From Arachidicoccus sp. (lineage in GTDB: Bacteria; Bacteroidota; Bacteroidia; Chitinophagales; Chitinophagaceae): 64,000 nucleotides of DNA. Positions 34,997 through 47,372 of the stretch are shown here, one piece after another (position 1 is the stretch's first letter; each line of letters opens with the position of its first letter). The notes under the pieces were generated by a model that was not told the DNA's origin, ran no database searches, and saw only the letters and a program-made list of their open reading frames with translations. The stretch spans positions 1 through 64,000 of the forward strand of contig JAPWKH010000022.1 in assembly GCA_028283605.1 (NCBI GenBank), read 5' to 3'. The translations under genes and the position numbers were made by a program.

Positions 34997-35935
34997 TCAA
35001 CTAACCAGTCGCGCATAACTATCAACAAACCTATGGAACGGATTTAATTTTTCGTACATAAAATTGTAAGAAATTATCCCGGCTGCAGCGCATATTACGC
35101 CGGCAACCACATCCAGCAGATAATGATGATTTGCATACACGGCTGTAGACCAAATACCTAACATTACTATACAGAAAAAAACAAGCGCATACCAACGCTG
35201 CCTGTTTTTTATTGCATGGTAAAGAACAATAGTTGGATAAGAAGCATGCAAAGAAGGCATAGCAGCAAACACGTTGGAGCTTTGTGCGTATAGTCCTTGA
35301 AAAATATGAACATGAAAATAATTATCAAAACGCCCTAACCCTGCTGTATTGCCCGGCGTATGCGCATTAAATGCGAAACCATGCAGTTCTATATACCAAG
35401 GCGGCGCCGAAGGGCACAAATAATAAATTACAAATCCTATTAAATTTACCCATAAAAAAGTAAGTGCAAAATTGATATAACCTTTCCGCTTATTTGTATA
35501 AAAAAGATATACACCAAATAAGATAGGTACAGGCATCCAGCATAAATAAAAAAAACCGGCAAAAATATCCGCAACAGTACAATGGTGCTGCCAGAAATAT
35601 TCATTCAGCGTTACTATTTTCCCCTCGGCCTTTATTCCAAACCATGATTTTTCCAGCTCATAAATATCCTTTATATGTACTGTGGAAAATTGATAATTAG
35701 GAAAGCCTTTCATAAAATCAAACAACACCCAAAACGCAATAAATATGGAAAACGCGAGGATAAACTTCCTGCTTCCGGAACTTAAATAATATAATGTATT
35801 AAATAATATTACTAAGACTAATTGCTCCGTTTTGTAACCGATAAAAATATTACAGAGGATGAGATAAAGTGCAGAAATGCCAAAAGTGAGCAATATCCTT
35901 TTCACTGTAAATGTTGCAGGGCGTGTATTCTCCAA
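34997..35935 (-). CDS. AUR1/PAP2-like membrane transferase (candidate inositol-phosphoceramide synthase)
   Basis: This is a 312-residue protein with about eight membrane helices. It has PAP2-superfamily catalytic motifs: FAAMPSLHASYPTIVLYH (conserved SLHA) and a later AVYANHHYLLDVVAGV with the His and Asp of the third motif. The arrangement resembles fungal AUR1 and mycobacterial/Bacteroidota relatives that transfer a phospho-head-group from phosphatidylinositol to ceramide. It ends an operon-like series that includes inositol-phosphate synthase and a CDP-alcohol phosphatidyltransferase, which supports inositol as the head group. A lipid phosphatase role is the main alternative. Confidence 0.72.
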   Translation of the reverse strand: MENTRPATFTVKRILLTFGISALYLILCNIFIGYKTEQLVLVILFNTLYYLSSGSRKFILAFSIFIAFWVLFDFMKGFPNYQFSTVHIKDIYELEKSWFGIKAEGKIVTLNEYFWQHHCTVADIFAGFFYLCWMPVPILFGVYLFYTNKRKGYINFALTFLWVNLIGFVIYYLCPSAPPWYIELHGFAFNAHTPGNTAGLGRFDNYFHVHIFQGLYAQSSNVFAAMPSLHASYPTIVLYHAIKNRQRWYALVFFCIVMLGIWSTAVYANHHYLLDVVAGVICAAAGIISYNFMYEKLNPFHRFVDSYARLVS

Positions 35936-35952
35936 AGTCGGTAATATTTATT

Positions 35953-36618
35953 TTATGCTATTGGTTCCGATTGGTTTTGGCTGGTTTTCGATGCAGATTT
36001 TTTCTTTGGAAAACCGGAAACAAAAATCAAATCCCAAACAGAAGAACTTACGCCAAATCCTTTAGTTTGGTCTTGATAATGATGCAGCATGTGGTGCTGC
36101 TTTATCTTTTTCATTAGCGAAGATTTAAAATTGTGGTGATGCATGGCATAATGCAGCATGTCGTAAATCAAATATCCTGTAATAAAACCCGGAAAGAAGC
36201 TATACAATGCAGGTTTTGAAAAGAACAACGAGAAAACCCAGTAAAACAAAATTGCCAATGGAATGCTTACAGACGGCGGCATTACAAGGCGCAGCCTGTC
36301 TTTAGGATAATCATGATGCACGCCGTGAAAAATAAAATGCAGCCTTAATCCCCACGATGATTTTGGGACAAAATGAAATATAAATCTGTGCAGTACATAT
36401 TCTGTCAGGCTCCAGACAATTAAGCCGATTGCGTAATATTCAAAAAAGAATAAACCGCTGCAATGCCCTGCAGCAAAGGCTTTCCACGAAAAGAAAGCAA
36501 TTGCGGGAATAAATATATATAATGGTACGGTGAAATGTACTTTTGATAAACTTTCCAGAAACGTGCTTTTAAACATTCTGGTAGATTCTTCCGAATTGGA
36601 AACAAAATTTTTTGCCAT
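35953..36618 (-). CDS. Fatty-acid hydroxylase/sterol desaturase-family membrane enzyme
   Basis: This is a 221-residue di-iron membrane hydroxylase with four hydrophobic helices. The conserved His boxes are present: HRFIFHF, HFIFHGVHHDYP, HYAMHHH and QHHMLHHYQD. In eukaryotes this superfamily includes the sphingolipid fatty-acid 2-hydroxylase and the sphinganine C4-hydroxylase. It lies 17 bp upstream of the AUR1-like gene in transcription order, which suggests that it hydroxylates the ceramide made by this locus. The exact carbon is unknown. Confidence 0.8.
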   Translation of the reverse strand: MAKNFVSNSEESTRMFKSTFLESLSKVHFTVPLYIFIPAIAFFSWKAFAAGHCSGLFFFEYYAIGLIVWSLTEYVLHRFIFHFVPKSSWGLRLHFIFHGVHHDYPKDRLRLVMPPSVSIPLAILFYWVFSLFFSKPALYSFFPGFITGYLIYDMLHYAMHHHNFKSSLMKKIKQHHMLHHYQDQTKGFGVSSSVWDLIFVSGFPKKKSASKTSQNQSEPIA

Positions 36619-36649
36619 GATAAATCCTCCTTTTATTGCGAAAAAGTTT

Positions 36650-37249
36650 TTAGCTTTCTTCCTCTTTCTTCACATCTGTCAAGCGTTCAACTTCTTCTTG
36701 TCCAGTTTTTATATTTTTGCCGCGTAGTTCAACATACACAACATGCGGATTCCAAAATGAACCTCCTTTGATATAAATAAATATGCTGTTCATATACGCC
36801 AGCGCATTATTTATTTTCCCGCATGTTTTCCAATCTCCTCCTTTCGTTTGTATCAGATACATGTGGTATTTTTTATACGATACAAACCAAAATTCATAAG
36901 TGTTTTCTTTCGTTTTATGAATATTTAATCCGTAAGCAAATTTACGTTGAATAAAGTTTAATTCCCTTTTTTCTCCTTTTGGCGAGTCGCCGTACCTAAG
37001 CCAATAAGTCGTCAATGGTTTATTTAAATCCACCTTATTATTTACAATATTCAGATCGCATGATATGGTGTTGATATTCGGCGTTCTTTGCAGGTAAAAC
37101 ATTCTGTTCGGCGTGCTTGGCGGTATAGGATATTCCACTCCTTCGCGCGTAATTCCGGATTGCGCCGATAAATTTAACTGAGTAAAAAACAAAAATGCAA
37201 CAAGTAAAAATCCGGTAATATTTTTAAAAGATATCAATCTCAAATTCAT
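36650..37249 (-). CDS. Exported DUF4833-like protein of the inositol-lipid cluster
   Basis: This is a 199-residue protein with a signal peptide (ITGFLLVAFLFFTQLNLSAQ) and a compact β-rich domain (MFYLQRTPNINTISCDLNI, TTYWLRYGD, YEFWFVSYKKYHMYLIQ). It resembles DUF4833, whose role is unknown. Its ATG overlaps the last 4 bases of the upstream CDP-alcohol phosphatidyltransferase, so translation is coupled. A periplasmic role in inositol-lipid handling is possible. The family name is from resemblance, not search. Confidence 0.6.
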   Translation of the reverse strand: MNLRLISFKNITGFLLVAFLFFTQLNLSAQSGITREGVEYPIPPSTPNRMFYLQRTPNINTISCDLNIVNNKVDLNKPLTTYWLRYGDSPKGEKRELNFIQRKFAYGLNIHKTKENTYEFWFVSYKKYHMYLIQTKGGDWKTCGKINNALAYMNSIFIYIKGGSFWNPHVVYVELRGKNIKTGQEEVERLTDVKKEEES

Positions 37250-45947: not shown

Positions 45948-46077
45948 ATTTACTTTGTATTTATTCCCTACTCATGCAAGTCTTAGCTTTAAAGTTGTGA
46001 GCAGCCGACCAGTGCAGGCATTTTACTTTTTTCTGATGCCATAGTTCGGCAATTCATTAAAGTGTTCGCTAAATATA

Positions 46078-46104
46078 AAAAGAAGCCGTCCTTTTTGGAC
46101 AGCC
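46078..46104 (-). terminator. Terminator of the SPT gene
   Basis: On the minus strand GCTGTCC (46103-46097), a five-A loop, then GGACGGC (46091-46085), and TTCTTTTT. It starts 40 bp after the stop codon at 46143. Confidence 0.75.
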
Positions 46105-46142
46105 TCATGAATTAAATATTACAAAATAAGATTTACCAAACA

Positions 46143-47372
46143 TTAAGCGGTTTTGTGTGACAAAACTTTATCTGTTTCTTTATGCAGTTCTATACCGATT
46201 TTTATTGCAACAGCAGTGATTTTTTCTATCGCTTCTTCTATCTGTTCAAAAGTATGTGTAGCCATTAAAGAAAAACGTATAAGAGAATCGTCCGGCGGTA
46301 CAGCCGGCGCTACCACAGGATTTACGAATACACCTTCTTCAAGAAGATATTTTGTAAGTAAAAAAGTTTTATCGGGATCTCTCACAAGTATGGGAAGAAT
46401 CGGACTTTCTGTATTGCCTAAATCAAAACCGGCATCGATCAACAATTTTTTGGCATGTTCCGTATTTTTCCAAAGATTTTCTATATGCTCCGGTTCGGTT
46501 TCCATAATATCCAATGCCGTAAGCACACTTGCAACGGATGCAGGTGTCATACTTGCGCTGAAGAGCAGGGATCGGGCGCGGTGTTTGAGATAATCAATTG
46601 TTTCACTATCGCTGGCTACGAAGCCGCCGAGTGATGCAAAAGATTTACTGAATGTGCCCATGACCATATCTACGTGATCGGTTAATTCGAAATGAGATGC
46701 CGCGCCTGCGCCGTTTTTACCGATTACACCAAGGCTGTGGGCTTCATCTAAAAATATATTTGCGCCATATTTATCTGCCAGCTCTACGATTTCGGGCAGT
46801 TTTACCATATCACCCTCCATGGAAAATATCCCTTCGGTCGCAATTACTTTTACAACATCTTCGGGGAGCTGGCGGAGTTTGCTTTCGAGATCTTCTATAT
46901 CGTTGTGGCGGTATTTTAATGTTTTACCGAAAGAAAGCCTGGAGCCGTCAATAATAGAAGCATGATCATATTCGTCCAGAATAAGAAAATCATTTCTGCC
47001 GACTACGCTTGATAATACCCCGAGATTTACCTGAAAGCCGGTGCTAAAAAGAAGCGCATCTTCTTTCCCTACAAATTTTGCAAGACGTTTTTCGAGTTCA
47101 ATATGAATATCCAGCGTTCCGTTTAAGAAACGCGAACCGGCACAGCCTGTTCCATATTTTTCAATGGCTTTTTTTGCGGCTTCTTCAATTCTTGGATGAT
47201 TTGTAAGCCCCAAATAGGAATTGGAGCCAAACATCAATACTTTTTTACCTTTAATAAACACTTCCGTATCCTGTCCGGATTCAATAGCTCTGAAATAAGG
47301 ATAAAGCCCTTTTTCTTTGATTGCTATTGCATCTCTAAACTCGGCAATTTTAGTTTTTAATCTTTTCTGCAT
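46143..47372 (-). CDS. spt: Serine palmitoyltransferase (α-oxoamine synthase family)
   Basis: This is a 409-residue PLP enzyme that condenses serine with a long-chain acyl-CoA or acyl-ACP to give 3-ketosphinganine, the first step of sphingolipid synthesis. The PLP Lys lies in [13 protein letters not shown], the cofactor Asp/His segment in [16 protein letters not shown], and the acyl-site region is [16 protein letters not shown]. The length and the [11 protein letters not shown] N-terminal region fit bacterial SPT rather than KBL or BioF, and the neighbouring ceramide and inositol-lipid genes support this. It has its own terminator. Confidence 0.88.

Follow-up and report, generated by a model that had tools for sequence, protein, structure and literature searches.

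The window analysed here is a stretch of 64,000 nt from Arachidicoccus sp. (contig JAPWKH010000022.1 of assembly GCA_028283605.1, forward-strand positions 1-64,000), which carries on its minus strand, between 34997 and 47372, eleven lipid genes and a twelfth gene of the YigZ/UPF0029 family. Judged from the sequence, it is highly probable that this block is a single cluster, probably an operon interrupted by YigZ, for the synthesis of inositol phosphoceramide (IPC) whose acyl chain is most likely 2-hydroxylated. The gene families, their motifs, the gene order and its conservation, and a recurrent gene fusion form the basis of this view and are all seen directly. From 47372 downward the genes encode serine palmitoyltransferase (SPT), YigZ, a GNAT-type acyltransferase, a short-chain dehydrogenase/reductase (SDR), myo-inositol-phosphate synthase (MIPS), a PgpA-type phosphatase, GtrA, a DUF5686 protein, phosphatidylinositol-phosphate synthase (PIPS), a DUF4833 protein, a fatty-acid hydroxylase and an AUR1-like PAP2 protein, the putative IPC synthase (IPCS). 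The original prediction of a nearly complete IPC pathway had named all of these but YigZ, and its eleven open reading frames are present on the minus strand where it had placed them. Pfam and NCBIfam agree with its families, although they support the acyltransferase weakly and place the SDR at superfamily level, and the YigZ gene between SPT and the acyltransferase had been overlooked.

In the proposed pathway SPT would combine serine and an acyl thioester into 3-ketosphinganine, the GNAT protein would N-acylate this base, and the SDR would reduce the keto group to give dihydroceramide. On the head-group side PIPS would perform the coupling to CDP-diacylglycerol and the PgpA-type phosphatase would strip the extra phosphate to leave phosphatidylinositol (PI). 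The Scs7-like enzyme may add a 2-hydroxy group to the acyl chain of the ceramide, to which the AUR1-like enzyme would transfer phosphoinositol from PI. GtrA, a periplasmic DUF4833 protein and the Omp85-like DUF5686 barrel may help to move PI and the completed lipid across the envelope. We infer these reactions in this organism, and with them the roles of the acyltransferase and reductase and those in transport. The ceramide phosphoryl-myo-inositol of Sphingobacterium spiritivorum has 2-hydroxy chains. A passage of PMC9246714 (citing Naka 2003) reports this lipid from that species, which makes the product chemically plausible in this branch.

The head-group half has a close counterpart in Bacteroides thetaiotaomicron, where BT_1522-1526 comprise MIPS, PgpA, GtrA, PIPS and IPCS in identical order; in the window, and likewise in the related locus L059, these five genes lie on one strand in that order. 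The best match of the window MIPS in the PDB is inositol-3-phosphate synthase 7nwr (573.6 bits), which we take to be BT_1526. The original prediction had allowed that the phosphatidyltransferase and the AUR1-like protein might turn out to match a plain phosphatidylglycerol-phosphate synthase and a plain phosphatase best, and the matches did not bear this out. PIPS scores 393 bits against the NCBIfam model PIPSynBT1523 (NF052561, cut-off 350) as against 32 bits for pgsA, and the active-site motif DxxDGxxAR...GxxxDxxxD is found in the window and in 80/80 relatives. A profile made from eight IPCS relatives matched AUR1 best in the PDB (E 4e-20), the two AUR1 sequences being the sole matches at E up to 1, and the motif PSLH...HxxxxD is present in the window protein and in 77 of 78 relatives. 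The PDB entries matched here and below, AUR1 and SCS7, are presumably the yeast proteins.

Knockouts establish this half of the pathway in B. thetaiotaomicron, according to the relevant passages of PMC9246714 for BT_1522, 1523, 1525 and 1526, and of PMC8791184 for BT_1522, 1523 and 1526, the deletion of 1525 being described there as unsuccessful. Deletion of the GtrA gene BT_1524 lowered IPC and raised PI in the account of PMC8791184, which fits a PI-flipping role for GtrA, and had no effect by thin-layer chromatography in that of PMC9246714.

Relatives of the block were collected by a contig scan with eight aligned PIPS sequences, and the best 80 of at least 516 were used, a set that leans towards the window's kin and in which contig ends truncate some loci. 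These loci were gathered solely by PIPS, and its neighbours recur in them beyond what chance would give. Same-strand neighbours included IPCS in 78 of the 80 loci, DUF4833 and DUF5686 in 75 each, PgpA in 71, GtrA in 70, the hydroxylase in 67, SPT in 65 (64 orthologues and that of L108, which is 35 percent identical and lies outside the block), the SDR in 62, MIPS in 61 and the acyltransferase in 56 (counting that of L064, a 29 percent relative). All 11 genes occur in 38 of the loci, or in 35 of the 64 that extend far enough to both sides (by 9.9 kb upstream and by 4 kb downstream), and the order of those present is kept in 79. As a control, the outer neighbours nrdA, nrdB, purA, mnmD and both LdcA genes were found in 0/80 loci; beyond the nrd genes, the acyl-CoA thioesterase-like gene at 30395-30784 has a relative (54-59 percent) in five loci, all of Pedobacter, and the gene at 50386-52818 has weak matches (27-29 percent) in two. 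Complete blocks were seen in Pedobacter (21/31), Niastella (3/3), Ferruginibacter (3/5), Segetibacter (1/4), Chitinophaga (1/2), Foetidibacter (1/1) and Nubsella (1/1); Mucilaginibacter has none in seven loci and SPT in all seven. Two further loci, L070 and L071, come from contigs labelled Beijerinckiaceae and Azovibrio and hold Bacteroidota-like versions of the block; probably the labels are wrong or the records contaminated.

An even sample of the window's family, not chosen for SPT, had PIPS in 21 of 117 genomes (18 of 100 genera), and across the phylum the PIPS cut-off was passed by 9 of 296 genomes. By tblastn, SPT stands in the block in 14 of the 21 family loci and the hydroxylase in 16. 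At least two families have the block, f1 and f3, the f3 loci each being without a tblastn match for one to three genes; it is thus patchy across the group but real. The joint stretch of SPT and inositol genes that had been singled out for attention in this strain is borne out by gene-order comparison as a conserved arrangement, and it recurs in the group rather than being special to the strain. Pairwise distances of eight cluster genes over 45 loci are correlated at 0.75-0.94, a figure that, with no control gene from outside the block, cannot separate joint transfer from common descent.

The hydroxylase is what points to a hydroxylated ceramide. Its one convincing sequence match in the PDB is the SCS7 structure 4zr1 (E 2.6e-32; all others have E above 0.2), and the di-iron histidine motifs HxxxxH, HxxHH and HxxxHH are present in the window protein and in 67/67 relatives' hydroxylases. 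Scs7 additionally carries cytochrome b5; in the 221-aa window protein Pfam finds the hydroxylase domain alone. The FA_hydroxylase family is functionally mixed, and the protein could instead act on the sphingoid base or on a carotenoid- or sterol-type substrate. This is unlikely in view of the SCS7 match, of the presence of the gene in all 14 SPT-bearing family loci, and of its staying with the ceramide genes in G018, a genome of the window's genus discussed below. FA2H-like enzymes of myxobacteria have also been linked to sphingolipids in a passage of PMC10002949 (citing Ring 2009).

For the ceramide half, SPT scores 718.9 bits against SerpalmtaseCFB (NF047600), above the equivalog cut-off of 640, and SPT above the cut-off occurs in 11/296 phylum genomes. 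Acyltransferase orthologues of at least 590 bits were found in eight of these 296, the next score being 449, and in all eight they adjoin SPT, with YigZ intervening in the window. The trio of SPT, acyltransferase and SDR also occurs in a genome without PIPS (G061), and in G245 it adjoins a different inositol set. Nine SPT-bearing blocks are without the acyltransferase; an orthologue (567-637 bits) lies elsewhere in eight of the nine genomes, and the ninth, a 3.4-Mb assembly, gave a weak match alone (120 bits). Two genomes, G285 and G293, have SPT with neither acyltransferase nor SDR as a neighbour within the stretch fetched. By their association with SPT, we propose that the GNAT protein and the SDR are the ceramide synthase and ceramide reductase. 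The arrangement resembles Spt-bCerS-CerR of Caulobacter, in which a pyridoxal-phosphate acyltransferase, an acyltransferase and an SDR-type reductase are likewise together, the likeness being one of gene families and their grouping. Passages of PMC10865984 give the bCerS locus tags as CCNA_01212 in Caulobacter and BF9343_4218 in B. fragilis.

Several observations weigh against a single IPC cluster or against individual assignments within it. The window IPCS scores 337.8 bits (over residues 12-311 of 312) against PhinosDhcerSyn (NF052609), below the cut-off of 480, which was reached by none of 60 family genomes. In seven of the 21 loci of the family sample the inositol half is present and SPT is missing from the block. 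MIPS is absent from 19 of the 80 loci within the stretch covered, L082 and L098 among them being too short to tell; among the loci without it are L063, L066, L079 and L137, and both MIPS and the acyltransferase are missing from L065, L067, L068, L074, L083, L093, L105, L118 and L120 (seven from Pedobacter, two metagenome-assembled genomes). The acyltransferase belongs to a broad superfamily, with a homologue at E 1e-20 in 285/296 phylum genomes, and its profile search of the PDB gave weak matches alone, the best being an acetyltransferase at E 0.019. The SDR matches numerous unrelated epimerases, and a simple hydropathy scan found no signal or membrane segment in it, whereas the Caulobacter CerR (CCNA_01222) is described in PMC11087976, in the part concerned, as periplasmic. 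A Bacteroidota-type promoter pattern had 5 matches in the window against 4.3 expected, none of them near the block.

If the block instead held two independent neighbouring pathways, one for ceramide and one for PI, and the AUR1-like protein were another lipid phosphatase or head-group transferase, no IPC would be made. The NCBIfam score of that protein below its cut-off would be in keeping with this, as would the separability of the two halves. In G004, SPT lies far from the genome's own inositol genes, accompanied by an SDR and by an acyltransferase that is divergent (29 percent), and G018, a one-contig assembly, has SPT, acyltransferase, SDR, MIPS, DUF5686, DUF4833 and hydroxylase in order and is missing PgpA, GtrA, PIPS and IPCS. 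A tblastn search of the G018 locus for remnants of these four genes gave no match better than E 0.08, and across that genome PIPS is absent at E 1e-60 and IPCS at E 0.001, PgpA and GtrA having been sought at the locus. When this absence is read as loss, however, the head-group half behaves as a single functional unit made up of these four genes, and their joint disappearance, together with AUR1 being all that the IPCS profile retrieves from the PDB and with the recurrence of IPCS beside PIPS, makes two unconnected pathways distinctly improbable. G018 would then be predicted to make (hydroxy)ceramide without IPC, unless another route exists. In G415, of the same genus, no SPT was found above the cut-off. 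Sulfonolipids are common in Chitinophagaceae, and the SPT-like enzyme shares its fold with cysteate acyltransferase (28eh, 253 bits), but its more than twofold higher score against the serine palmitoyltransferase structures 3a2b/8guh (581 bits), which argues against sulfonolipid synthesis, its place above the SPT equivalog cut-off and its linkage to IPC synthase leave that alternative a very small chance.

The single IPC cluster also gives a setting to two domains, DUF4833 and DUF5686. PIPS and DUF4833 form one open frame of 424-462 residues in 49 of the 80 loci, including 30 of the 31 from Pedobacter and none of the seven from Mucilaginibacter, and a frame of fusion length occurs in nine of the 21 PIPS genomes of the family sample. 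The linker contains a hydrophobic segment in 48 of the 49 fusions, which would place the DUF4833 domain on the periplasmic side. In the window PIPS and DUF4833 are separate genes with an overlap of 4 bp, and a hydrophobic segment is present at the N-terminus of DUF4833 itself. The structure model of DUF4833 is confident (pLDDT 89.9) and mostly beta, and no convincing match emerged from the PDB. DUF4833 is present in 18/296 phylum genomes, including six of the nine with PIPS, and it is the last gene of the alternative inositol cluster in G245. GtrA stands beside it in six loci of genomes without PIPS (L163, L164, L167, L170, L171 and L172), and a CDP-alcohol transferase adjoins GtrA in L163 and L167, the two scanned with Pfam. 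The neighbours in L163 are an SDR, PhyH and the CDP-alcohol transferase, with open reading frames of matching size in the rest of the six, which are possibly another lipid head-group cluster. Six other DUF4833 loci have no tie to GtrA or inositol genes, and these, with the DUF4833 of G018 in the absence of PIPS, argue against a role limited to PI.

The C-terminal part of DUF5686 is predicted to form a barrel with an Omp85-type fold. The loop motif (V/I)RG(F/Y) is conserved in the Omp85 superfamily; RG[FY] was found in two of 25 sequences and is lacking in the window protein. It is conceivable, though on balance doubtful, that the block encodes its own delivery route as well as synthesis: GtrA would flip PI to the periplasmic face, DUF4833 would present PI to an outward-facing IPCS or take its product, and DUF5686, as a TamA/BamA-like barrel, would insert IPC into the outer membrane.

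The layout of the block (Table 1) is compact. From the acyltransferase to IPCS ten genes follow one another with intergenic gaps of -10 to +114 bp, three of which are overlaps, and the gaps flanking YigZ are 195 and 178 bp. YigZ occurs in none of the 80 relatives' loci and is for this reason regarded as an interloper. Horizontal gain, judged by base composition, was considered and rejected, the block having a GC content of 0.36-0.38 and no contrast with its surroundings. Beyond SPT two LD-carboxypeptidase-like genes adjoin each other, one at 47691-48599 that matches Pfam S66 and its homologue at 48610-49635; G415, G029 and G018 likewise have such genes in adjacent pairs.

Table 1. Genes of the proposed inositol phosphoceramide block, with positions in the window.
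Gene or product	Position	Strand	Evidence
SPT, first step	46143..47372	-	NF047600; PDB 3a2b/8guh; GTFSK motif
YigZ/UPF0029, interloper outside the pathway	45342..45947	-	Pfam UPF0029 E 3e-35
GNAT-type acyltransferase, proposed ceramide synthase (bCerS role)	44033..45163	-	Pfam Acetyltransf_1 weak, 24 bits; adjoins SPT
Extended SDR, proposed ceramide reductase (CerR role)	43059..44036	-	Pfam Epimerase E 2e-35; context
MIPS	41608..42945	-	Pfam NAD_binding_5 E 1e-106; PDB 7nwr
PgpA-family phosphatase, proposed PI-phosphate phosphatase (BT_1525 position)	41055..41573	-	Pfam PgpA E 2e-40; flanked by MIPS and GtrA, like its counterpart in BT_1522-1526
GtrA-family membrane protein (BT_1524 position)	40675..41064	-	Pfam GtrA_DPMS_TM E 6e-20
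DUF5686, CarboxypepD_reg N-terminus and predicted Omp85-like outer-membrane barrel	38083..40659	-	
PIPS, BT_1523 type	37246..37968	-	NF052561; DxxDGxxAR...GxxxDxxxD motif
DUF4833, predicted periplasmic	36650..37249	-	Pfam E 3e-38
Putative Scs7/FA2H-type ceramide fatty-acid 2-hydroxylase	35953..36618	-	Pfam FA_hydroxylase E 1e-17; SCS7 4zr1
Putative IPCS, AUR1/BT_1522-like	34997..35935	-	NF052609 below cut-off; AUR1 profile match; PSLH...HxxxxD motif

Compared with known systems, the block is in all likelihood the BT_1522-1526 pathway of B. thetaiotaomicron merged with ceramide synthesis and hydroxylation. A carboxypeptidase-regulatory-like gene, BT_1527, lies near the Bacteroides cluster too, but SPT (BT_0870) is elsewhere in that genome, as passages of PMC9246714 describe and as had been expected of Bacteroides at the outset, whereas the window block adds SPT, acyltransferase, reductase, hydroxylase and DUF4833. 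It also differs from the alternative, B. vulgatus-type cluster of NTP transferase, CDP-alcohol phosphatidyltransferase and HAD hydrolase in that it lacks both the NTP transferase and the HAD gene, and in that the CDP-alcohol transferase is of the BT_1523 type and accompanied by PgpA and an AUR1-like protein. A set of the alternative kind is present in G245 (locus L168), where an NTP transferase, a 289-aa unknown protein, a CDP-alcohol transferase, an LPG synthase-like protein, a HAD protein, a PfkB kinase and DUF4833 are joined to SPT-acyltransferase-SDR-DUF5686. No MIPS was found in the stretches fetched from G245, where inositol phosphate might therefore come from the PfkB kinase. The yeast IPC pathway is encoded by LCB1/2, INO1, AUR1 and SCS7, and the catalytic parts of SPT, MIPS, the AUR1-like and the Scs7-like proteins are homologous to it; the window differs in using the bacterial PI route via PI-phosphate and a phosphatase, and in having all genes in one block.

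The head-group half is therefore already known, the acyltransferase and reductase roles follow the Caulobacter work, and FA2H-like sphingolipid enzymes are on record for myxobacteria. As far as the open-licence papers in PMC show, with subscription papers and supplements lying outside them, the merged block, its spread, the PIPS-DUF4833 fusion and the Omp85-like barrel are new, and no paper on DUF4833 or DUF5686 was found among them. The genus list in the main text of the larger survey (PMC9246714, supplements apart) names, in the part concerned, neither Pedobacter nor any Chitinophagaceae. According to a passage of PMC11334938, the Bacteroidota that produce sphingolipids do not have SPT, bCerS and CerR close together; if the assignments from context are right, the three stand together here, unlike in that statement.

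With this block, each step of inositol sphingolipid synthesis has a candidate gene within a single testable unit, the acylation, reduction and 2-hydroxylation of ceramide included, and named Pedobacter, Niastella and Chitinophaga strains carry this unit. DUF4833 and DUF5686 gain from it a pathway and testable locations. The authors of the Caulobacter work remark, in a passage of PMC11087976, that flippases or lipid transporters are not yet identified; if the delivery route outlined above were true, GtrA, DUF4833 and DUF5686 would be candidates for the missing bacterial sphingolipid transporters.

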